From a virus, in the IMG/VR virus record IMGVR_UViG_3300042305_001169, positions 1 to 28,478 of that record: DNA of 28,478 nucleotides; one strand, 5' to 3'. This document shows, piece by piece, positions 5,260 to 28,478 of the stretch. Made by a program: the position numbers and the translations under genes. Every line of letters begins with the position of its first letter. The stretch's first letter is position 1. The notes below the pieces were generated by a model. The model was not told the origin of the DNA. It did no database searches and saw nothing but the letters and a program-made list of their open reading frames with translations.

Positions 5260-5283
5260 CAACCAACCACACACATCAACCAC

Positions 5284-5886
5284 ATGACTACAGTCTATAT
5301 CTGTGGGCCTATGCGCTCAATTCCAAACCTCAACCACCCCGCTTTTTTTGAAGCCGAAGAAGCTTTGCTGAAGGCGGGACATAAAGTAATCAACCCCGCA
5401 AGAATGGATCAGGTTCTTGGGCTAGATCCCCACAACTCTCAGATGGACGGCAAGTTCATTGAGGAGGCGGCAAGGCGCGATATCGACGCCGTCTTTGAGT
5501 GCGACGAGTTGGTTCTCCTTCCGAAGTGGGAGAAGTCCAAGGGGGCAAGGGCGGAAGTTGCCGTGGCTCAATGGCTGGAAAAACCCTTGCGTCTTTACCC
5601 ATCTATGGTTAAGTTGGAGAAAGAAGATGTGTGCGACATTGCCAAACGTCTTACTTCCTATGATCGCCAAACCGACTACGGAAGCCCGATTGAAGACTTT
5701 ACCAAACAGGCTAAAATGTGGGGAGCCATCCTTGGGGTGAATGTGACTCCGCAACAAATCGCCATGTGCATGATCGCCGTCAAACTTTCCCGCCTCACCA
5801 ACTCGCCCCGCCATCGTGACTCAGTCGCGGACATCTGCGGGTATGCGCGGTGTTTGGATCTCTGTAACCAAGCAACATCTCTATGA
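5284..5886 (+). CDS. DUF4406 (nucleoside deoxyribosyltransferase-like) fused to DUF6378
   Basis: 200 residues with two domains. Residues 1-110 match the DUF4406 pattern: VYICGPMRS at the N-terminus, PAFFEAEEAL, HKVINPARMD, a central DIDAVFECDELVLLP, and KGARAEVAVAQ containing Glu91. This family has the nucleoside 2-deoxyribosyltransferase-like fold and is thought to act on nucleosides or nucleotides. Residues about 120-195 match the phage family DUF6378: RQTDYGSPIEDF, KMWGAILG, QIAMCMIAVKLSRL, HRDSVADICGYARCL. The fusion suggests a joint role in nucleotide metabolism; the exact reaction is unknown. The leader is strikingly C/A-rich without a Shine-Dalgarno sequence, and the stop overlaps the next start (ATGA). 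Confidence 0.75.
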   Translation: MTTVYICGPMRSIPNLNHPAFFEAEEALLKAGHKVINPARMDQVLGLDPHNSQMDGKFIEEAARRDIDAVFECDELVLLPKWEKSKGARAEVAVAQWLEKPLRLYPSMVKLEKEDVCDIAKRLTSYDRQTDYGSPIEDFTKQAKMWGAILGVNVTPQQIAMCMIAVKLSRLTNSPRHRDSVADICGYARCLDLCNQATSL

Positions 5887-12000: not shown

Positions 12001-13796
12001 TCTGGCGTAATTACAGATTCATCCAGTGTATCACTAATCTCCGTGGTTCTGGTGTTTGTAGTAACCCTCTTTACAAATTCATTGATCTGTTGTTCCGACT
12101 TTAAAAATTGATTTTCACCAAGAGTTGGTTGCGCGGCTGTTCCTTCAATGTTTTCTTCGGTGGTTAAATCAGACTGTTTAGCTCTGAACTTTTGCGGGGT
12201 AAGATCTGCTTTTTCGGCGCGGAATGTTTTGGCGGAAAATACTTTTGGGCTTTCGGTGACGCGAACCACATACGTCCCATCCCCAAGGGCTTCTGATTCA
12301 ACTGTTTTTTTTGATGTTGGTACTGCCGTAGTATCTCCATTCTGTAGAGTTTCGGTAACGGTGGCCAGCAACCCTTCATTGGTTGTTAGCTTTTGAGTCA
12401 GTGACTTAGGAAGCTGGGCGGCATCTCTGGCCGTAGTAGATATCCGTTTAACGAACTGGTTGACCTGTTGTTCGCTCTTGACAATTTCTCCTGCAACTAA
12501 AGTGGGTTCTTCGGCTTCACCTTCCAAGTTTTCTTGGCGGGTCAACGAGGGAATGGCTGTGCGGAACTTGGGAGGAACGGGGTCTGGTCGTTCTTTGGAA
12601 AATGTGATGGCCGAAAACACCTCATCCACTTGCGTCTTAGTAATGACGTAGTTCCCATCACCCAAAGCTTCAGATTCAACGGTCTTGGTGGCTGTCGGGG
12701 TTTCGTCGGTGTTGCCTAGCTGAAGAGTCTCGGTGACAGTGACTTCCTGTCTTTCGTTGTTGGTGGACTTTCCCGTAAGTGTTTGAGGTAGAACAGCTTG
12801 ATCTCGCGAAGTAGAAGACACGCGCTTGATAAACTTATTACGTTGTTCCTCGCTCTTAGAGAGTTCTCCTTCGTCTAGGCTGACATTGGGGTCAGCATCG
12901 CCTTCGACAATTTCTTGAGAAGATTGAATCGGAACAGCTACGCGAAACTTTTGCGGAATGGGGTCGGGACGTTCTACAGAAAACGTATTGGCCTTGAAGA
13001 TTTCGGGAGTGTCAACAATCCGCTCAACCAAGGATTCGGCATCCTCGCGAGAAACCTCTACTGTGCGCGTGGCGGTGGGATTGGGCGGAATATAGTTTAG
13101 TGCCCCCCTGCGCTGAGTTGTTACGGTAATTAACTGACCATCATTGTCTGTGGCCCTTCCGATCAATTGGGGGCCATCTACCTTGTAGGTTTGGACAATC
13201 TTGACTGAAAGAAATTCGTTGTATGGTTCGTAACTGGTTTGAGTAATAACTCCGTTGACATTCTCTAAAGAGCCAACCTCTTCTCCTGTGGGGACAAAAA
13301 GTTGGCGGCGTTCTTGGACTGCCCCGCGAGAGGCATCGTAAAAATCCCGATCCTTGATAGGAAAAAGAGAATTGCCATCTTCGTCAACTTTGATTGACCA
13401 AGTCTCTTCAATCTCTAAAGAAACAATGGCAGAGCCTTCGCGTCCCTCATAAGATATCTTCCTATCAGAAGCCAAATCAGCTTGTTGTCCCTCGTTTTTA
13501 ACTGCCCTGCGCCGACCTTGAATCGGGCCTAAATCATCATCATAGCGGGTAAATGGAACCCAAGGGGCGGGTAAAATCTCATAGATATGGGTGACAATCT
13601 GATCTCCAGAAGAAGGTTGAGCACCAGTAAAAACATGGTTGGGGTAGCGTTTTGAATCAGGATGCGGGCTTAGATCTTCTGGAACTTTGTAGCCAGCAAC
13701 CCTTGGATCAAGGCGTATTGCGACTACTGGATAATCACGGTCATTGGCCGCATATGAAGCGACATAGAAACGATTTAGCGGTGGATAATCAGCCAT
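9048..13796 (-). CDS. giant repetitive tail-fibre-like protein, eight to nine 126-residue repeats
   Basis: 1582 residues, first gene of the reverse operon. Residues 1-150 form a unique N-terminal domain, likely for virion attachment. From residue 267 to about 1271 the chain consists of eight tandem repeats with a period of 126 residues, beginning at 267, 394, 520, 646, 771, 897, 1023 and 1149; a degenerate copy seems to occupy about 152-266. Repeat landmarks are IP.KFR near the start, KSEQQ.N.FVKR in the middle and E.[LI]G[DG]G....K near the end, followed by [DE].VF. Residues 1272-1582 are a unique C-terminal region, probably the distal domain. Alternating Thr/Val/Ile strands suggest beta-sandwich repeats, so a long fibre-like adhesin is likely. 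No collagen-like or enzymatic motif is visible. A probable promoter lies just upstream (13810-13838). Confidence 0.75.
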   Translation of the reverse strand: MADYPPLNRFYVASYAANDRDYPVVAIRLDPRVAGYKVPEDLSPHPDSKRYPNHVFTGAQPSSGDQIVTHIYEILPAPWVPFTRYDDDLGPIQGRRRAVKNEGQQADLASDRKISYEGREGSAIVSLEIEETWSIKVDEDGNSLFPIKDRDFYDASRGAVQERRQLFVPTGEEVGSLENVNGVITQTSYEPYNEFLSVKIVQTYKVDGPQLIGRATDNDGQLITVTTQRRGALNYIPPNPTATRTVEVSREDAESLVERIVDTPEIFKANTFSVERPDPIPQKFRVAVPIQSSQEIVEGDADPNVSLDEGELSKSEEQRNKFIKRVSSTSRDQAVLPQTLTGKSTNNERQEVTVTETLQLGNTDETPTATKTVESEALGDGNYVITKTQVDEVFSAITFSKERPDPVPPKFRTAIPSLTRQENLEGEAEEPTLVAGEIVKSEQQVNQFVKRISTTARDAAQLPKSLTQKLTTNEGLLATVTETLQNGDTTAVPTSKKTVESEALGDGTYVVRVTESPKVFSAKTFRAEKADLTPQKFRAKQSDLTTEENIEGTAAQPTLGENQFLKSEQQINEFVKRVTTNTRTTEISDTLDESVITPEGQLATRTITLSKSAQTLVPSATVIDGNVEELGDGRTVKTEVRVDEVFDGKQESLEKPEVIPPEFRASLQNRTISEIKTGQAISLPSLSQEELSKTIQRVTEHKIRETKVTRPSDDYPKLTGELVDNDQIKVTRTRTVAKGGQTITPSATVSGSVEALGDGYTLKTEDTKEKFFEGKSFSQEKPDNIPVEFRAEKPVTIEEFTEEGDVQEVSLADDEISKSEQQVTEFLKRTRTATRDIIGGVTLEGEQIDQDGIKVTVTRSLQDGTQSIAPSATTSGQVEAIGGGKTIKTELEKSEVFNARTLTRQQAFQLPAKFVTGETEEESFIEESKNAEPEELGDNGTGIVQSTAQRVTAFTVRKTTRTVDGTTSTTEKQLSNSGQEITIESEISDDSSIETGAKVEIARTQAIGGGKFLKEIGKVEEVFNSKQRTFTQAAQIPAKFLDGKITETNFIEEGTTEEPEEVGSDGFGVVQSSSQRVNAFLRRQTQREQEGTTSLTEQQTNNFNQRITVTSSIVDDPEVEPSAKTEFARTQAIGGGKYVKEVGVVDSVFPETTRTRRQGAQIPQAFVDGQNTFTRIEEGTNDEPEELSENGYGIVETSAQRITENKVRRSRTGIDVSGQTVTTKVFTQELGGGLANLTQKLNSPIAPSFGTISAEETSIGGGATVSRELVLAAPPALAGEDYDEVTSIQIPFTQQFVEAGEEGEIGSSITPRDVFHSQKRTIDIQAAKKEYLKYEVITDDVVSINLPDVLESIEITVEQIEGGQNSTATGNSSQAQCTASADWEIAVRPKISSGASGSYPASKHIFFIDPEDSTALGFKTIDTGFINKPPVTIPVGTIIERTQSNPFPLFRPQSQSFNIIVESERVVGSASVSLPDNKSESISSEKNVRIQTVTLPFCINTDVSLAKTSGNFVVEKNAKAEGPDVSTEVKVKAEAKYRIEGANPIPRTPPYEFIPSGRFLYSVNTQLYRFGLVKVEATIVTL
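9984..12998 (-). repeat. eight diverged tandem repeats of about 378 bases inside the fibre gene
   Basis: Coding repeats of 126 residues. In reading order the units occupy 12998-12618, 12617-12240, 12239-11862, 11861-11487, 11486-11109, 11108-10731, 10730-10353 and 10352-9984. The first five carry KSEQQ.[NT].F.KR-type cores and E[AE][LI]G[DG]G ends; units six to eight share another subtype with Q[SR].[SA]QR[IV].[AE] cores and [QS][AS]IGGG ends. The nucleotide sequences have diverged enough that the repeat is clearest in protein, so the array is old or under diversifying selection. The fixed length of 125-127 residues shows strong structural constraint. Confidence 0.85.
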
Positions 13797-13809: not shown

Positions 13810-13838
13810 AATCTAACTCAAAAAGAAGGTGGCGGCAA
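13810..13838 (-). promoter_or_regulatory. candidate promoter for the reverse fibre operon
   Basis: On the minus strand TTGCCG (13838-13833) is followed after 17 bases by TAGATT (13815-13810). The -35 is poor and the -10 fair (4 of 6). Transcription would begin near 13803, leaving a leader of only about seven bases before the ATG at 13796. The site lies in the only gap upstream of the operon, which makes some promoter here likely; these exact boxes are less certain. Confidence 0.3.
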
Positions 13839-13851
13839 GATGATTTTTTGC

Positions 13852-13879
13852 TTGCATGATTCCGTGTCTTTGCTAGATT
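13852..13879 (+). promoter_or_regulatory. candidate promoter for an intergenic small RNA
   Basis: TTGCAT (13852-13857) and TAGATT (13874-13879) are separated by 16 bases; each box matches four of six consensus positions. The expected start point, about 13886, falls exactly at the base of a hairpin that is followed by a strong terminator, with no ORF between. The promoter alone would be weak evidence; its position relative to the two hairpins raises its value. Confidence 0.35.
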
Positions 13880-13883
13880 GCAG

Positions 13884-13963
13884 ATTGGAGGGCATTCGTC
13901 TTCCAGTTATCATGTGTGTGGGGCGGGGTCGGGGGCTTGAAATCCTCGGCCCCGCTTTTTTTT
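13884..13963 (+). ncRNA. candidate small RNA with a 5' hairpin and 3' intrinsic terminator
   Basis: About 80 bases without an ORF form two hairpins. The first (13884-13907) has an eight-pair core TGGAGGGC/GTCTTCCA closed by a four-base loop ATTC and two G-U pairs, extendable by two more pairs. A 15-base single-stranded linker containing TCATGTGTGTG follows. The second hairpin (13923-13955) is GC-rich with an eight-T tail. A promoter-like pair of boxes places the start at the first hairpin. This is the plan of a stand-alone bacterial or phage small RNA. It matches no RNA family I can name. It may instead be only a terminator that blocks read-through between divergent operons. Confidence 0.45.
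13923..13963 (+). terminator. strong rho-independent terminator
   Basis: Twelve pairs between 13923-13934 (starting GCGGGG) and 13944-13955 (ending GGCCCCGC), including two G-U pairs, enclose a nine-base loop and are followed directly by eight T residues (13956-13963). The T-tract shows it works on the plus strand. No plus-strand gene lies upstream for 6.8 kb, since that stretch is the reverse operon, so it either ends a small RNA or stops antisense transcription before the forward promoter that starts six bases further on. Confidence 0.88.
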
Positions 13964-13969
13964 GAACGC

Positions 13970-13996
13970 TTGACAAGATCGGTTGTCGGATATAAC
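13970..13996 (+). promoter_or_regulatory. strong promoter of the forward 14013-17852 operon
   Basis: A perfect -35 TTGACA (13970-13975) and a near-perfect -10 TATAAC (13991-13996), separated by 15 bases, slightly below the optimum of 17. The start point would be near 14003, so the first ATG (14013) has a leader of only about ten bases and no Shine-Dalgarno sequence. The promoter begins six bases after a terminator T-tract, giving a clean insulated start. Confidence 0.65.
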
Positions 13997-14012: not shown

Positions 14013-14639
14013 ATGGCATATCAATCAAACCAACCCAAAGCACCAGTCCTATCACATTTTACTTTGGCCAAAAATGGGCCGAAGCTCGTATCAGTTAAAT
14101 CGCCCCCTAAATGGGTGAAGAACAATTCGTTGTGCGTTATCGAATTGATTGTTGATGGCGTAGCCCATGTGTATTTTACTGAGAATAAGGACATTGCATC
14201 GAAATTCCAACAATATGTCGGTAAGTCGGTAGTCATTATTGCCTCTGGCAATTCCAAACAGAAGACCGATTCCATGGAGATCCAGCCTGCTGGGGTGCCC
14301 GCTTCCAGCTTGCCCGCAGCCCAGAGTGCCCCGCAATCGCTCCAGAAGCCCGTAGAAAAGGTTATTACAGCCCCATCCCATCCAGACAAGGATGCCAAGC
14401 AATTCCTCTGTCAGGCGGCAAATCTGATGCGTTTGTGCGTCAAGAAGGCCAATGACATTGCGGTGGAGTTGAACCTTCCCGAACAGCACCGTCAGGGGAT
14501 AGCAACGACGATGTTTATCCAAGCGGATAGACAGGGCTTCATTCAAGTTATGCCGATCACTGCGTACACCCCCGAACAACTTGGTTTCGGTGCGAGCAAG
14601 GCCGAATCCCTCAAAAACCCCGAACCAAACAATGACTGA
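14013..14639 (+). CDS. hypothetical protein, first gene of the forward accessory operon
   Basis: 208 residues from ATG 14013; an upstream in-frame TTG at 13983 is rejected because it lies inside the promoter. The N-terminal 75 residues are beta-rich and basic (FTLAKNGPKLVSVKSP, CVIELIVDGVAHVYFTE, KSVVIIASGN) and could form a small OB-like barrel. A Pro/Ala/Gln/Ser linker (about 88-112) joins a helical C-terminal domain (KQFLCQAANLMRLCVKKAND, then EQHRQGIATTMFIQADRQGF). A barrel-linker-helix layout ahead of a SWIM zinc-finger protein and a RecB-like nuclease hints at a nucleic-acid-binding protein in replication or recombination, but I recognise no family. It overlaps the next gene by eight bases. 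Confidence 0.6.
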   Translation: MAYQSNQPKAPVLSHFTLAKNGPKLVSVKSPPKWVKNNSLCVIELIVDGVAHVYFTENKDIASKFQQYVGKSVVIIASGNSKQKTDSMEIQPAGVPASSLPAAQSAPQSLQKPVEKVITAPSHPDKDAKQFLCQAANLMRLCVKKANDIAVELNLPEQHRQGIATTMFIQADRQGFIQVMPITAYTPEQLGFGASKAESLKNPEPNND

Positions 14640-15594: not shown

Positions 15595-15685
15595 ACTGGA
15601 CATCATAGCTATTGCGATGTCTGAGTCAAATAAAAAGTGAGATATTTTCTTTGAACGAATCAACCACACATCTGTCAAAGCACAC

Positions 15686-16318
15686 ATGATCACACATACA
15701 GCCAAAATGCCAATCTTTGGTCGAGGCGTTCCAGAGATGGAAGAAAAAAGACTCGCCAATCTTAGGATAGCCAATGCCAAACCAAGGTCTCCAGAACACG
15801 TTGCTAAACTGAAAGCGGCTTTCAAAACAAGCTGGGCTTCTGGCAAGCGAAAAAAACAGTCTCCTGAAGCTTGGAAAAAACGGGCTGAAAGCGTCAGAAA
15901 AACCTATGCTCTTGGTAATTATAAAAAGCGGAGCTTTGAAGAAATGAGCAAGATTGGCAAGGAGAACAGAAAAAACGTTGATTATGGCAAGCTCTGTCTA
16001 GCCAATCGCATACTTGCAGAGAAACGGCGCGGAACAGAAATGCCAAAAACAAACAAAAGTGGATTACCGTCTAGGGGGTGCAAATCGCCCAATCATTGGA
16101 AATCAAAATATTGGAGCGTTGAGAGGCATGACGGGATTGTTCTTGAGGGAAAGAATCTCAACGATCTTATAAGAAAGAATTCACATTATTTTAATCCAGA
16201 GGATGTGGAATGGAAAAAATCTGCTTGCCGCGCATCGGCTGGATTGCGTCAGCTTTTTGCTGGGCGTGTCAATGGCCCCAAAATTTGGAAGGGTTGGAGC
16301 GCAAGATATCTTCCGTAA
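15686..16318 (+). CDS. NUMOD3-like DNA-binding protein, homing-endonuclease relative without visible nuclease domain
   Basis: 210 residues, very basic. Three short helix-turn motifs recur: [15 protein letters not shown] (near 33-47), [17 protein letters not shown] (near 58-74) and [14 protein letters not shown] (near 82-95). They resemble the NUMOD3 modules that homing endonucleases use to grip DNA. The C-terminal 75 residues ([26 protein letters not shown], then [17 protein letters not shown]) resemble the sequence-specific end of intron-encoded endonucleases. No HNH or GIY-YIG centre is seen, so it may be a degenerate endonuclease, or a DNA-binding partner of the divergent HNH gene. ATG 15707 is a possible start. 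It ends ten bases before the next gene. Confidence 0.65.
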
Positions 16319-21734: not shown

Positions 21735-22928
21735 ATGAATGATATAGCCAAAAAAAACGCTCAAGAAATGCTTAGAAGGGCTGAGAGTTCTCCTCGCAGG
21801 CAATGGGGGTGGGGAACTCCAGAAATTGGAACTACTTCTCCAGAAGAAAGGGAGGCTTACGAATATCTAGAAAAGAAACCTCTGGTAGAGTCTGGTCAAT
21901 TATCGCCCGCTGAATTGCCAGAGCAATACGGTGGTCGCCCACAAGGAACTACCCGCAGGGCTATTAGGTCACAAGTTGCTTGGGATGCGGGGTATGCTGC
22001 TGAGTTGGAACGACAGAGGCAAATAAGAGAGATGGAGATGGAACAAAAAAGATTCAATCTTCAACTTGATCAAGAGAAAAGGATGCAGGGTCAATACCAA
22101 CTTGAATTGGATGCGGCATTGAAACGCAGCGCCAGAGAAAACCGAATTCAAGATGAAGCAAGGGCAATTCAAGATTCTATTATTGGTGGAAAGTATCTTG
22201 GAGATCAGGATGGAGTTCCGCAATTTTCACAACCAATTAGGCCAGATGATGATGATGCGGTTGATCGGCTTAGAGAGATAGCAAGAAACCGACTTGGAAT
22301 GGAAAATCCCGCAGCACTGGCGATGTGGAAAGATTTGTATGAAGACGCCCAAAAATATCAAGAGGCAAAAGCAGAAAGCGCCATTGAGACACGCGACAAA
22401 AACCTTTCATTTATTGTAGATCAACAGAAAGAAGCGTCCTCTCTTGGTGTTGATGTTTCTCCGTATTTTACTCAGGATGAACAAACTGGAGAGGTGACCG
22501 CCGTGGATCAGATTGGACTTTCAGAGGCCATTGGAAAAGCAAAGAAAGAAGATATCGAAAGAAAGAAGCAAGAGATTGTTGGATCAAAACTTGATGAAGA
22601 AAGCCGCAAGCAGGCTGTTTCAATCATTGGTCAGATTGAAGATACGGATAAGCTAATCCGAGAGGCAAATTTTAAGGCACAAAGAGAGACCAGCAAAAAG
22701 ATTATAGATGAGTATTTGTCTCAATCTGAATTTCTTAGAAGTGAGCGGGCATTGCTTGAACAAAGATTTAATAATGTTGTTCCTCAAAAACAACAGACAC
22801 AACAGGCACCGCAGGCACAGCCACAAAAAGAACTTAGCCAACAAGACCAAGCTGCGCTAAACTGGGCCAATGCAAACCCAGACGATCCTAGAGCAAAAAA
22901 AATTAAAGACAAACTTGGAGTTCAATAA
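21735..22928 (+). CDS. probable internal virion (ejection) protein, long coiled coil
   Basis: 397 residues, strongly helical: Glu/Arg/Gln-rich coiled coil around 90-150 (LERQRQIREMEMEQKRFNLQ and after) and again around 265-345. A Gln/Pro-rich linker (QKQQTQQAPQAQPQKE) is followed by a short terminal segment, AALNWANANPDDPRAKKIKD, ending KLGVQ. The WA.ANPDDPRA..I...LG ending is a recurrent tail of phage virion proteins. An ejection protein that helps bring DNA and the following giant protein into the cell is a reasonable reading. The stop overlaps the next start by one base (TAATG). Confidence 0.62.
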   Translation: MNDIAKKNAQEMLRRAESSPRRQWGWGTPEIGTTSPEEREAYEYLEKKPLVESGQLSPAELPEQYGGRPQGTTRRAIRSQVAWDAGYAAELERQRQIREMEMEQKRFNLQLDQEKRMQGQYQLELDAALKRSARENRIQDEARAIQDSIIGGKYLGDQDGVPQFSQPIRPDDDDAVDRLREIARNRLGMENPAALAMWKDLYEDAQKYQEAKAESAIETRDKNLSFIVDQQKEASSLGVDVSPYFTQDEQTGEVTAVDQIGLSEAIGKAKKEDIERKKQEIVGSKLDEESRKQAVSIIGQIEDTDKLIREANFKAQRETSKKIIDEYLSQSEFLRSERALLEQRFNNVVPQKQQTQQAPQAQPQKELSQQDQAALNWANANPDDPRAKKIKDKLGVQ

Positions 22929-25900
22929 TGGCCTTTGATCCAGATGAATATCTGAACGAGAAAGGCTCGCCATTTACCGCCACAACGGAATTTGATCCAG
23001 ATGCCTATCTCAGTGAGTTGGACTCAGAAAAAGAAACTGAGTTTGATCCTGATGCCTATTTAGAAGAACCTTCTCCTGTTGCTGGTCTCAGGGTTCCAGA
23101 GGCTCCCCCAATAGTTGAGCGTCCAGTAGAGAAAACTGAAGAGGGGATTCTTCGCAAGGCGGCAGATGTTCCCGTTCGCTTTCTTGGCGGAACGGCTGGC
23201 GTCCTTAAATCTGTTGCCGATGTTTTCGGGGCAGACAGTCCAGCTTCTCAGGACTTTGCCGAAAGACAGAGGTTTTTCCAGAACCTTGTTTCTGAAAGCG
23301 GAAAAGAAAAAGACAAGCGAGCGGCAGAGATTATCAAATCTACAGAAGACGCTGGTCTTTGGGAGCGGGCAAAGTCGGCAGGAAAAGCATTTCTTGAATC
23401 CCCTAGCTCTATGCTTGCCACTGGTGCTGGGAGCTTGGCTCCCTTTATTGCTACTGCTGGAGTTGGAACAGCAGCAAGATTAGGAGCGGCTGGTGTTCGC
23501 GGACTTCAAGTTGCGGCTGGTGCTATTTCTGGTGCTGGAACGGTTAAGGGGGAAATTTACGATGCAGTAAAACAAGCAGCTATTGATGCTGGAAAGACCC
23601 CAGAAGAGGCCGAAACACTCGCTTCCGAAGCTCAATCTTATGGCGAAAACCCAGAACAGATTTTAGCTGGCGGGGCTATTGGAGCACTAGCCGCATCTAC
23701 TGGTATTGAAGCCACTGCTGGTAGGGCTATTTCTGGAGCGGCAAGAAAGCTGGCCACTGGAGCGCAAATCGTCGGTAAAAACGTAGCACAAGAGGTTGTT
23801 ACAGAAGTTCCGCAAGAAGCCCAAACCGCACTTGCTAAAAACTTTGCTTTGCAAAAAGCAGGATTTGATGTGCCTACACTTCAGGGTGTGGTCGAGGCGG
23901 GAACTACGGCTGGTATTGTGGCGGCAGCATTGGGTGGTGCGGCTGGAGGGATTGATGCCATAGCAGCAGCGTCCGAAAACGCACAAAAAGTTAAACTGGC
24001 CGTTAACACACAGAGTGCAGCACAGCAAGTTAGCGATGTGGCCCCGTTTACGGCTTCTGTTGTTTCAGACCAAGCGGAAGTTGTTGGACGCGAAGGTGCA
24101 GAAGATCTTCAGACGGAAGCCGATCAAAAGATTACTGAAATTACTCAAGAAACCCCCGAACAGCGAGTAGCCCGTCTCCAAGAAGAAGCTGCCGCAGCAG
24201 CAGGAATAGAACTAGAAGAAGAGGGAGTCGGGGTCGAGCCGCCTGTTGCCGTCACTCCTCCCGTAGCCCCCACTCCCGAAGGCGCAGTAGCCCCTGTAGA
24301 GCCAGTAGTTGAGCCAATAGTAGCAGAGCCGCAGCCAGAGCCAGAAACGCTCGTCTCGCCCGATGTGGTGGCAGAAACTGTCTCGCCGCAAGCCGTAGTC
24401 CCAGAGACCGAGCCAGCCGACATCCCCGACACCAGAGGACAGGGCAAACAATTTCATGGAGCCAGAGGGCCGATAGAAGGACTCACCGAAGGCTACTATA
24501 GTTCCGACAATATCTACGGAGGAGAGTCTACTTTCTACACAACGGATGCGGTGGACATTGCGGCGGGCTACCAGCGCAAAAAGCCCAATGCCGTCATCTA
24601 CCAAACAACCGAGAAAAAACCAGTTAACTTCTTTGACATGGAAGAGCGGCGTCCCGCCTCTGAATGGGAACAGATGTTCGCGCCCACTGAGGCTACTGGA
24701 ATTCCGTCAGAAGGGTTTGTTCCATTTGGCATAGAGTTGGCTGCTGAAAAAGCAAACGGCACCCCGAACCTCCGCGAGGTCATGGACGAGATGAGGGCTG
24801 AATCCGCGAATGAAGGCTACTCGCGGGATACGCTTCAAGAGTTTTTTGCAGGGATGACGGGGACGCTGGAAAAGATGGGCTTTGGTGGAATGCAGCATAT
24901 CGGTGGACTCCAAACCAACAGACCGCAACACAATGTAAAGATCTACTTCAAGCCATCCGAGCAGCTAGACATTACGCCCGTGGATGTGCGCGGCAATCCC
25001 GTAACTCCCGTAACGCCTGTAGCCCCGACTCCAGAGGGAGTAACCCCGACCCCCGAAACCCCGAATCTTGAACCTCTACGCCGAGTAGCAAGAGCAGAAC
25101 AAACAGAAGAGGATGTTTCGGGGTTGGTCGGTCAAGGACTAGTCGAGCTATACAATGGGCAACCAGTGATCACGCAAGCGGGTCTAGAGGCGTTGCCAGA
25201 GGCCGAACGCCCAAGGCTGAACCCCGAAGCCCGAAAGATCCAAATCGACACAGGATCAAACGAAGTAGTAGCCGAAGCCATCGCGAAGAATCTTCGTATC
25301 GGGGTGGATCAGGTTGGAACAGGTGTGCGTATGCCCGCAGGATGGACACTGGTAGAGGATATCTATGTTCCGCCGAAACCCATCGAAAGAATAACACCTT
25401 CCGAAATTGAAACCGCTGTAATCCCCGAAGAAGCAGGAGATGTGTTTGCCAACTTGGTTAGAAGGAAGCAAGAGGTTCAGCCTACTGTCTTGCAGAAACC
25501 AGCAGGATCTCAGTTCCAAAATCCAGAAGAATTTCGTTCGGCGTTTGATCTTCGTGGCCAAGGACATACACGTTTTGCCATCAGGCTGGATTTAATGCAG
25601 GAGGACGGCGCAATCACAGAAGATGGAAAGAGCCTCATCCTTGCCACAATTTGGGATAACAACACAAATGACGAATTCCTCGCCAACATGGAGATGGGTA
25701 GCGCCCGCAAGAACGTCAAAAGCTACGGGTATGGCGGAAGAACAAGGCAGACAGTCGAAGGCGGAAGAGTCGAGCAAAAGCCACTTCTTGAACTAATTCG
25801 CCAAACTCGTAGAGGTGGAGCCGAGGTCGATAAAAAAACGGCACTAACACTTAATACTTTTTGGCATGAATATGGTCATGCTGGTTACTATTCTTTGCTG

Positions 25901-28478
25901 GATGCCAAGCAAAAGAAGTCAGTAGATGATGCATATAATAAAACCACAAGGTCTGGTCGCAGGGCGTTTTTTGCCGAAGGAAAATCCGATGCTGAAAACA
26001 CTCCTTGGTTCTCAAAGTATTACGCCAAAAACCAATCAGAGTGGTTTGCTCAATCATTTGCCGAGTATGTAATAACGCAAAAGTCTGATCAGAAAAAGTT
26101 GGTTCCAATCTTTGAGCAGATTTTGGATAAGGTCAAAGCCGTCTTTACTAAGCTTTTCAACAGGAAAGAACAGGTCAATCTCAATGACATCTTTGACTTC
26201 ATCCTTCGCGGCGAAGCCTATGGTCAGAAGCCAACTTGGCAGGGATACACGATGTCTACCAAGCCAGCGGTCTACGGAACGCCTAGAGGACAGGCGATAT
26301 CTCCAGAATTTACAAAGAGGGCTTTAGAGCGAGGAGAGGAAGTCTCGTTTGCGGATGAACGCCGTCAACAAATCATTGATGGGATAAGTCTAAAGTTTAA
26401 AAGATCCAAGAATGAATACGGGAACAATGAGTTTAAGACAGAATACGATTTCGGTGGCCGTAGTACTATAGTGGATAAAATATCATTTAGCCTTGAACAA
26501 TTTGATGATTCTACTGTTGCCATGTCCTACTTGCCCTCCAAGGGTGGTAAATATGTAAATATCAAGCTTGGAGAGTTAGAGCAACAGTTTAAGGGGAGAG
26601 CCGCCGCCGAAAGAGCTATCAAGCGGGCTATTGCAGAAATCGAAATGGACGAACGTGTTGGTGGCGCGGAAGAGGCCGCTCCAATAACAGATGTTTGGCA
26701 AGCTCCCGAACAAGAGATTACTTCGGCAAAAACCTCCATCAATGAAAAGAAACTCCCAGCAGTTTTTAACAAGGTTAAAGAATGGGTTTCTGGAACAGTC
26801 AACGCCGACATTGGGGGCGGAAGATTTGATAACGCTACAGATTGGTTACGGGATCGCGGCGTAACTAATCTTATTATTGATTGGTTCAACAGGGATCGCG
26901 CCTTCAACGAAGCAAACATTAATCGTGTTCGTGGAGGTCAGGCAGACACGGCAACAGCCTCCAATGTTCTAAATGTAATTCAAGAGTCAGATGCTAGGGA
27001 TCTTGTTATTCGTCAGGCGGCGGATGCTATCAAAGAAGATGGGGCGGCATACTTCTATATTTACGAGGGAGATAAATCTGGAACTGGAAAACAAACCACA
27101 TCTGGATGGCAAGAGAATCGCAGGACACAAGACTACATTGATGAGATTTCTCAGCACTTTGGAGATGTAACCCGTCAGGGGCAAATGATCGTTGCGAGGA
27201 ATCCAATTAAAGAGGGTGCAGAACCGACAATGCCACCAGAAATTCCCGAAACCATCCCCACCTTCTCCGATGGAAGCCCCGAAGCATCTACTCTTTCTAC
27301 TATGGCGGCGTCTATGGCCAAGGTGGATGCGGCGTCCGAGGCAAAAGGCCCGACAGCCCTAAAGATTGGCGAGATAGCTTCTATCTGGATGGATCAAGGT
27401 GGAGACACCCGCCAACTCCAAGATCTTATTACGGAGAACACTAACCTCACCCCAGCCAATGCCAAGAAGGTGGCCAATGCCATTGCCAAGCAATACGATA
27501 TCCAACAATCTATTAAGACAGCATTCCTTGAAACTCCTGCTGGTGTTTCGGTGGAAGCCTTGCCCGAAGGTGTAACACTTCCCAAGGAAGTTGATCCTGA
27601 TCGGCCCCGCCCCGTCATGCAGCGTCTCTTTGATGTATTCATGGGTGTGAGGGTTCCCCCCGTCAAGATTACGGTCAACGAGAAGACGGCACTCAAGCAA
27701 CAAATCCGACTCAAGGCCGCAGCCAATCGTGCGGCAAAGCAGGAACAGCAACGCATAGCAGATGAGGTGGTCGAAGTAATTAAGGCCATGGAGCTTCGCG
27801 GCCCCGTGCGCCCAAAACAAGCCCAAGCCCTAGCTAAACGCGCAGCTAAAGTAATCTGGACGAGCGAGAAGTCCATGGAGAGCTTTGTCGAATACGCTGC
27901 CAAGGTGGTAGAGAACGCCAACTATGATGCCGATCTTCGCGAGGCCAAGGCAGCACAGAAACGCGCCAAGGAACTTTCCAAACAGAAGAAAGTCGCCATG
28001 AGTCCGCAGCGTCTAATTCTCCAGCAGATCGGCAATGTCGCAGCAAACAAGCTGGAAGATCCCCGCATGTTTGCCGAGATGATCAACTACTACTTGCGTG
28101 GATTCAAGGATGTGCGTTCTCCTGATTATGTAGTTGTTCCTGATGAAGAAATCACGGGCTACATTTCTCAACTTGAAACAGAGTCTGTTAATGATCAAGC
28201 CGAGGTAGAGCGCGAGACCAACGAAAGATTGGCCCGCAAATACGATCTTGATCCAAATGCCATTCCAGAATTGATGAGCCTTATCAACATCATTGAAGAG
28301 ATTGAAGGCAGGGAGAACCGAGAAGCTTTGGAGTCGATCCTTACCGATAAGGCAATCGAAACCCAAGACGGGTTGCGAGGATACGACACAACCGCGCTTA
28401 CTAATACTCAGAAGAATCTTGTTGAATCAATGTTAAATGTGGATTTGAAATCCATTAATACACAAGAGAGGCAAATGT
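22928..28478 (+). CDS. giant polyvalent virion protein with ADP-ribosyltransferase-like, zincin and SAM-methyltransferase domains, truncated by window end
   Basis: At least 1850 codons open to the window end. Order: three FDPD[AE]YL repeats (3-45); Ala/Gly-rich, membrane-like helices (about 160-350); a Pro/Glu/Val-rich linker (about 425-500); an ADP-ribosyltransferase-like or associated region (about 505-690) with QFHGARG (His510), STFYTTD (Tyr537) and DIAAGYQRK (Tyr548); a second Pro/Thr linker; a zincin protease around 850-1090 with HEYGH (His980, Glu981, His984) and a downstream SEWFAQSFAEY that supplies the third ligand; a Rossmann methyltransferase about 1270-1430 with DIGGGRFD (1294-1301), LIIDWFNRDR and NVLNVI (1346-1351); then long helical regions. 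This matches the polyvalent proteins of phages and conjugative elements, which enter the cell with the DNA and act on host defences or chromatin. Frame is confirmed because all motifs fall in one frame from ATG 22928. Confidence 0.85.
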   Translation, partial: MAFDPDEYLNEKGSPFTATTEFDPDAYLSELDSEKETEFDPDAYLEEPSPVAGLRVPEAPPIVERPVEKTEEGILRKAADVPVRFLGGTAGVLKSVADVFGADSPASQDFAERQRFFQNLVSESGKEKDKRAAEIIKSTEDAGLWERAKSAGKAFLESPSSMLATGAGSLAPFIATAGVGTAARLGAAGVRGLQVAAGAISGAGTVKGEIYDAVKQAAIDAGKTPEEAETLASEAQSYGENPEQILAGGAIGALAASTGIEATAGRAISGAARKLATGAQIVGKNVAQEVVTEVPQEAQTALAKNFALQKAGFDVPTLQGVVEAGTTAGIVAAALGGAAGGIDAIAAASENAQKVKLAVNTQSAAQQVSDVAPFTASVVSDQAEVVGREGAEDLQTEADQKITEITQETPEQRVARLQEEAAAAAGIELEEEGVGVEPPVAVTPPVAPTPEGAVAPVEPVVEPIVAEPQPEPETLVSPDVVAETVSPQAVVPETEPADIPDTRGQGKQFHGARGPIEGLTEGYYSSDNIYGGESTFYTTDAVDIAAGYQRKKPNAVIYQTTEKKPVNFFDMEERRPASEWEQMFAPTEATGIPSEGFVPFGIELAAEKANGTPNLREVMDEMRAESANEGYSRDTLQEFFAGMTGTLEKMGFGGMQHIGGLQTNRPQHNVKIYFKPSEQLDITPVDVRGNPVTPVTPVAPTPEGVTPTPETPNLEPLRRVARAEQTEEDVSGLVGQGLVELYNGQPVITQAGLEALPEAERPRLNPEARKIQIDTGSNEVVAEAIAKNLRIGVDQVGTGVRMPAGWTLVEDIYVPPKPIERITPSEIETAVIPEEAGDVFANLVRRKQEVQPTVLQKPAGSQFQNPEEFRSAFDLRGQGHTRFAIRLDLMQEDGAITEDGKSLILATIWDNNTNDEFLANMEMGSARKNVKSYGYGGRTRQTVEGGRVEQKPLLELIRQTRRGGAEVDKKTALTLNTFWHEYGHAGYYSLLDAKQKKSVDDAYNKTTRSGRRAFFAEGKSDAENTPWFSKYYAKNQSEWFAQSFAEYVITQKSDQKKLVPIFEQILDKVKAVFTKLFNRKEQVNLNDIFDFILRGEAYGQKPTWQGYTMSTKPAVYGTPRGQAISPEFTKRALERGEEVSFADERRQQIIDGISLKFKRSKNEYGNNEFKTEYDFGGRSTIVDKISFSLEQFDDSTVAMSYLPSKGGKYVNIKLGELEQQFKGRAAAERAIKRAIAEIEMDERVGGAEEAAPITDVWQAPEQEITSAKTSINEKKLPAVFNKVKEWVSGTVNADIGGGRFDNATDWLRDRGVTNLIIDWFNRDRAFNEANINRVRGGQADTATASNVLNVIQESDARDLVIRQAADAIKEDGAAYFYIYEGDKSGTGKQTTSGWQENRRTQDYIDEISQHFGDVTRQGQMIVARNPIKEGAEPTMPPEIPETIPTFSDGSPEASTLSTMAASMAKVDAASEAKGPTALKIGEIASIWMDQGGDTRQLQDLITENTNLTPANAKKVANAIAKQYDIQQSIKTAFLETPAGVSVEALPEGVTLPKEVDPDRPRPVMQRLFDVFMGVRVPPVKITVNEKTALKQQIRLKAAANRAAKQEQQRIADEVVEVIKAMELRGPVRPKQAQALAKRAAKVIWTSEKSMESFVEYAAKVVENANYDADLREAKAAQKRAKELSKQKKVAMSPQRLILQQIGNVAANKLEDPRMFAEMINYYLRGFKDVRSPDYVVVPDEEITGYISQLETESVNDQAEVERETNERLARKYDLDPNAIPELMSLINIIEEIEGRENREALESILTDKAIETQDGLRGYDTTALTNTQKNLVESMLNVDLKSINTQERQM
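22934..23062 (+). repeat. three FDPD[AE]YL repeats at the N-terminus of the giant protein
   Basis: Residues 3-9, 22-28 and 39-45 read FDPDEYL, FDPDAYL and FDPDAYL, separated by 12 and 10 acidic, flexible residues. The spacing and the identity of the motif suggest short linear binding peptides, possibly for packing the protein into the capsid or for docking to a portal or core protein. The repeat is visible in DNA as TTTGATCC[AT]GATG. Confidence 0.8.

Follow-up and report, generated by a model that had tools for sequence, protein, structure and literature searches.

The gap between two divergent operons of an uncultivated virus holds what is, judged from its sequence and conservation, a stand-alone small RNA (sRNA) unit with its own promoter and terminator, without a conserved ORF and independent of its neighbours. 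The window analysed here is the whole 28,478-nt stretch of IMG/VR record IMGVR_UViG_3300042305_001169, and the unit occupies positions 13852–13963 on its plus strand. Its presence in 66 of 66 relatives, together with exposed, conserved letters that match the start of a phage message encoding a DUF4406-DUF6378 protein, suggests that the sRNA probably controls the timing of that message's translation. On balance, we consider it somewhat more likely than not that this phage RNA of about 78 nt pairs with CA-repeat translation starts, that of DUF4406-DUF6378 first, and lowers ribosome binding there. Among uncultivated phages, hardly any trans-acting sRNAs have been mapped. An sRNA that is present in every relative examined, and for which a seed can be defined and a target ranked, offers a directly testable case of a phage sRNA acting on the phage's own messages.

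Organization of the transcription unit

Promoter, 5′ hairpin, unpaired linker and intrinsic terminator together make up a complete small transcription unit (Table 1), set between the minus-strand start at 13796 and the plus-strand start at 14013. The promoter (TTGCAT-16-TAGATT), the first hairpin and the eight-T terminator lie where the original prediction had placed them. The −10 box is preceded by TG one base upstream, and a terminator scan detected the terminator with 16 pairs, 10 of which are G-C. Folding of the 79-nt transcript gave −38.8 kcal/mol, compared with −24.7 ± 3.2 for shuffled sequences (z −4.45). A strict promoter scan did not list the sRNA promoter, whose boxes match 8 of 12 positions; thus, the promoter call rests on conservation. 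Rfam returned no match at gathering score for the sRNA region and no GcvB match at E values up to 5, and a phage collection contained no near match to it.

The element had also been described as free of any ORF, which does not stand as worded, since a 41-codon frame (ATG 13840 to TGA 13965) overlaps it in the window. This frame runs open across the entire element and could be taken for the gene of a 41-aa small protein, a reading to which we give practically no weight because comparison refutes it: the ATG is missing in 29 of 63 loci, indels are not multiples of three, and many loci have early stops.

Table 1. Features of the sRNA locus and of its predicted targets (window coordinates)
Feature	Position	Strand	Details
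Predicted target site, leader of ORF 5284	5267..5276	+	CCACACACAT; 10/10 complementary to linker
Predicted target gene, DUF4406 + DUF6378 protein	5284..5886	+	200 aa; Pfam E 4e-18, 1e-23
Divergent promoter-like boxes of 1582-aa gene	13810..13838	-	TTGCCG-17-TAGATT; same place and spacing in 58/67 loci
Inverted repeat joining both −35 boxes	13834..13855	.	GGCAAG..ATTTT..CTTGC; in at least 61/67 loci
sRNA promoter	13852..13879	+	−35 TTGCAT 13852-13857; 16-nt spacer ending TGC; −10 TAGATT 13874-13879
5′ hairpin at predicted transcript start	13885..13906	+	9 bp, AUUC loop; fold prediction
Unpaired linker, predicted seed	13907..13919	+	UUAUCAUGUGUGU; conservation across lineages
Intrinsic terminator	13920..13963	+	16-bp stem 13920-13958, T-run (8 T) to 13963; all variants fold
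Plus-operon promoter-like motif	13962..13987	+	TTGAACG-N15-TGTC; −35 begins within sRNA T-run
Second possible site, over ATG of ORF 15686-16318	15681..15690	+	CACACATGAT; 10/10 complementary

Conservation among relatives

An IMG/VR search with the 208-aa plus-strand protein yielded the 66 relatives, at about 97 to 50% identity, and all conservation data come from metagenomic contigs. Counting the window, the unit is present at 67 of 67 loci; it lies directly upstream of the plus gene in 64 of the 66 relatives and beyond an inserted gene in L036 and L056. Pairwise identity over 24 aligned representatives was 0.91 for the −35 box, 0.39 for the spacer, 0.81 for the −10 box, 0.33 for the discriminator and 0.81 for the linker. 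Over the 67 loci the promoter boxes are invariant or nearly so, and the spacer, discriminator and loop drift. Conserved boxes and linker with a drifting spacer and discriminator form the pattern expected where a promoter precedes a functional RNA. The contrast between constant boxes and seed and a drifting spacer also provides a search route for sRNAs in viral metagenomes.

The terminator occurs as 27 distinct sequences in the 67 loci, almost wholly different between lineages, and every one of them folds. The 5′ hairpin is maintained within lineages and replaced or lost between them, and the CAUGUGUGUG-type linker stays. The original prediction had put forward compensatory changes in this hairpin as a check. 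In lineage A, pairing survives G-U, A-U and G-C changes and one member gains a pair; lineage B has a different stem (TGAGGG..CCCTCG), and lineages C to F have no 5′ hairpin and retain the UG repeat, which in lineage D is placed within a small hairpin. Relatives that keep only the terminator, an outcome named as contrary to an sRNA, were not found, as boxes and linker are kept; the accompanying expectation about the first hairpin did come true in part, with its loss in several lineages.

The linker CAUGUGUGUG is GU-rich and single-stranded in most folds, and its GTGT is invariant in alignment A3. Across lineages no other part of the RNA is as well conserved, and the earlier choice of this linker as the putative seed is supported. 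Scanning IMG/VR with a pattern made of the linker and the terminator returned only contigs already known from the sRNA locus.

Insertions and promoter context

Mobile genes inserted around the unit in six relatives leave it intact. These endonuclease genes of HNH type, a label that comes from a reading of the protein letters, are inserted upstream of the sRNA in L005, L026, L054 and L055, with everything from promoter to terminator preserved. In L036, another HNH-type gene, whose protein has no match in Pfam, stands between the sRNA terminator and the plus gene, and in L056 an insertion of this type is in the plus gene; loss of the sRNA in these two relatives was considered and ruled out, the unit being intact upstream of the insertions. 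The stand-alone regulatory RNA that had been proposed is supported by this tolerance on either side and by the presence of the unit at every locus. The inserted frame of L005 extends into the sRNA promoter, and its stop codon falls in the −10 box.

It is highly improbable that the terminator alone matters, as an insulator blocking stray transcripts that start at the two divergent promoters. Conservation of the linker and of the −35, TG and −10 boxes equals that of the terminator, and the sRNA promoter is retained even in the four relatives where an insertion has parted it from the minus-strand promoter; what speaks for an insulator is the position between divergent operons with promoters set back to back.

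The sRNA promoter and the divergent minus-strand boxes share the box type TTGC..TAnnTT, and the central ATTTT of the inverted repeat is fixed between the two −35 boxes. The repeat is plausibly a shared activator site, through which both promoters may be activated jointly. The idea that TTGC..TAnnTT marks a class of late-gene promoters, common to this locus and capsid-type genes, was considered and dropped: the motif occurs 68 times versus 41 expected, and its matches near a 443-aa gene appear inside upstream coding sequence, leaving the late-class idea unsupported.

The flanking operons, which the original prediction saw as possibly of different temporal classes, do differ in their boxes, with TTGC..TAnnTT at the minus-strand gene and TTGAACG-N15-TGTC at the plus operon. 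The latter motif has 45 occurrences in 12 contigs versus 0.6 expected, with a spacing of exactly 15 in 41 of 46 cases, and it resembles ECF-sigma promoters (GAAC-N16-TGTC). Within the window it is found at the site in Table 1 and at 15651–15676 (+), with 43 more sites in related contigs, frequently about 10–15 nt ahead of an ATG. A search of the contigs for a phage sigma factor serving these promoters found none; one weak sigma-factor match proved to be a terminase-small-subunit-like protein.

The sRNA lies on the strand of the plus operon, 50 nt upstream of its ATG, and might accordingly be an attenuated leader whose terminator lets polymerase pass under certain conditions. The plus operon's own promoter-like motif, right after the terminator, and the integrity of the unit despite insertions, including the gene in L036 that parts terminator from plus gene, make attenuation quite unlikely. 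Moreover, the folds show no alternative antiterminator pairing, and the hairpins vary by lineage.

Predicted targets of the linker

The DUF4406-DUF6378 gene is the best candidate target of the linker. Conserved phage gene families from 11 contigs, with genes called by a simple longest-ORF rule, were ranked by duplex energy without site accessibility, and on this scale the gene ranked top among 101 families and again among the 82 whose median length is 60 aa or more. Its mean percentile was 0.019 across six genomes of three lineages, in which genomes of the same lineage are not independent. Shuffled seeds reached the best family score in 2 of 60 sets in a first run and in 0 of 418 when restricted to the 82 families. 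Additionally, a CA-rich run stands immediately 5′ of the ATG in nearly all listed DUF4406 orthologues; in G009 the leader CAACACACACATGAAAA faces the linker UUUUCAUGGUGUGUGUUG, and in L245 the leader TCCCACACA faces UGUGUGGGA from the same contig. An orthologue of the gene with the second possible site was seen in L031 only. The sRNA is separated by 8.6 kb from its best conserved predicted target, and control of an adjacent operon, as first suggested, is not favoured.

The signal does not extend to translation starts at large. Complementarity averaged over all phage translation starts was no higher than for internal ATGs or for shuffled seeds, and a seed matching such starts in general was rejected. 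Compared with the phage start-site profile, the complement of the linker fell in the ordinary range, its letter order not being special. In a swap test of seed-leader co-variation, own-lineage pairs were no better than others (rank 1257 of 5040 permutations, not significant), as expected if UG and CA repeats pair regardless of lineage. A counterpoint to the target reading is that the CA-richness of the leader may be kept merely as a translation enhancer.

The DUF4406 gene was not seen in the incomplete lineage B contigs G007, G008 and G011, which retain the sRNA. Thus, other targets probably exist, and further targets in phage or host are likely. The same persistence would suit a genuine stand-alone sRNA aimed mainly at host mRNAs or a host sRNA, with the DUF4406 leader match arising incidentally from the UG and CA repeats, and phage sRNAs such as VpdS, PreS and AgvB do act on RNAs of the host (PMC12197685). 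We hold such a host-directed role to be a serious but rather unlikely explanation, given that DUF4406 stood first among the 82 phage families and was equalled by none of the 418 shuffled seeds, in a ranking that scored only phage genes. A scan of genome contigs for relatives, as a clue to the host, found none.

Comparison with known RNAs

The R1 region of GcvB is a GU-rich unstructured seed that silences CA-rich translation enhancers (PMC3879156). The phage sRNA is similar in its conserved, unstructured GU-rich seed and in its predicted targets, CA/ACA-rich translation starts (PMC3879156). It differs from GcvB in being phage-encoded and about 78 nt long, with a single short linker, no Rfam match and a target by prediction only. 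Pairing with CA-rich starts in the GcvB manner is clearly best for one family here, with no enrichment over all starts and no significant co-variation. We read the RNA as a new sRNA family of phages that works like the R1 region of GcvB and is not itself a GcvB member. That it is a functional analogue of GcvB aimed at the phage's own genes, timing infection by silencing CA-leader mRNAs with a seed that spans the start codon, is possible but doubtful.

AgvB is an anti-sRNA from an EHEC prophage that mimics CA-rich targets and traps GcvB. It shares with our sRNA a phage origin and the same GU/CA pairing system (PMC12197685); however, AgvB has the CA-rich side and the sRNA at 13852–13963 the GU-rich side. 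Lambda OOP, P22 sar and P1 c4 are short phage RNAs controlling the phage's own genes (PMC12197685), each antisense to one particular gene of the phage (cII, ant). In contrast, our sRNA overlaps no conserved gene and has its best predicted target at a distance; a cis-antisense overlap of the OOP type, with the target on the opposite strand, is absent at its site between the two operon starts. In its predicted trans action it resembles VpdS of phage VP882 and PreS of lambda, both trans-acting phage sRNAs (PMC12197685). Those two belong to temperate phages with known hosts and have demonstrated Hfq binding, and by Rfam they bear no relation to the sRNA described here.

Proposed mode of action

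From sequence and conservation, the following course may be proposed. RNA polymerase would start near 13885 from a sigma-70-like promoter set back to back with that of the minus-strand operon, and transcription would end at the terminator, at 13963. The UG-repeat linker would then pair with the CA-repeat starts of the phage's own mRNAs, foremost that of DUF4406-DUF6378 (5284–5886). Such pairing is predicted to cover the leader and, in many of the relatives, the AUG as well; ribosome binding would fall, as with GcvB R1. The 5′ hairpin may protect or space the RNA and appears to be replaceable.

Other observations

A giant ORF begins within the window (22928–28477, +), where it exceeds 1850 aa; it reaches 2700–4200 aa in relatives. 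Its first 600 aa weakly match an N4-type virion RNA polymerase family (PHROG 2206, E 2.6e-7), a match that was not seen with the orthologue in G003. In G002 (IMGVR_UViG_3300032322_001107, 72.8 kb), the DUF4406 gene spans both contig ends, which makes it probable that this record represents a complete genome, circular or circularly permuted. Finally, a GACGGGCATCCTATGCC-like hairpin lies upstream of ORF 277-1503 (about 215–235, +), a 408-aa gene, and several relatives preserve it ahead of their copy.
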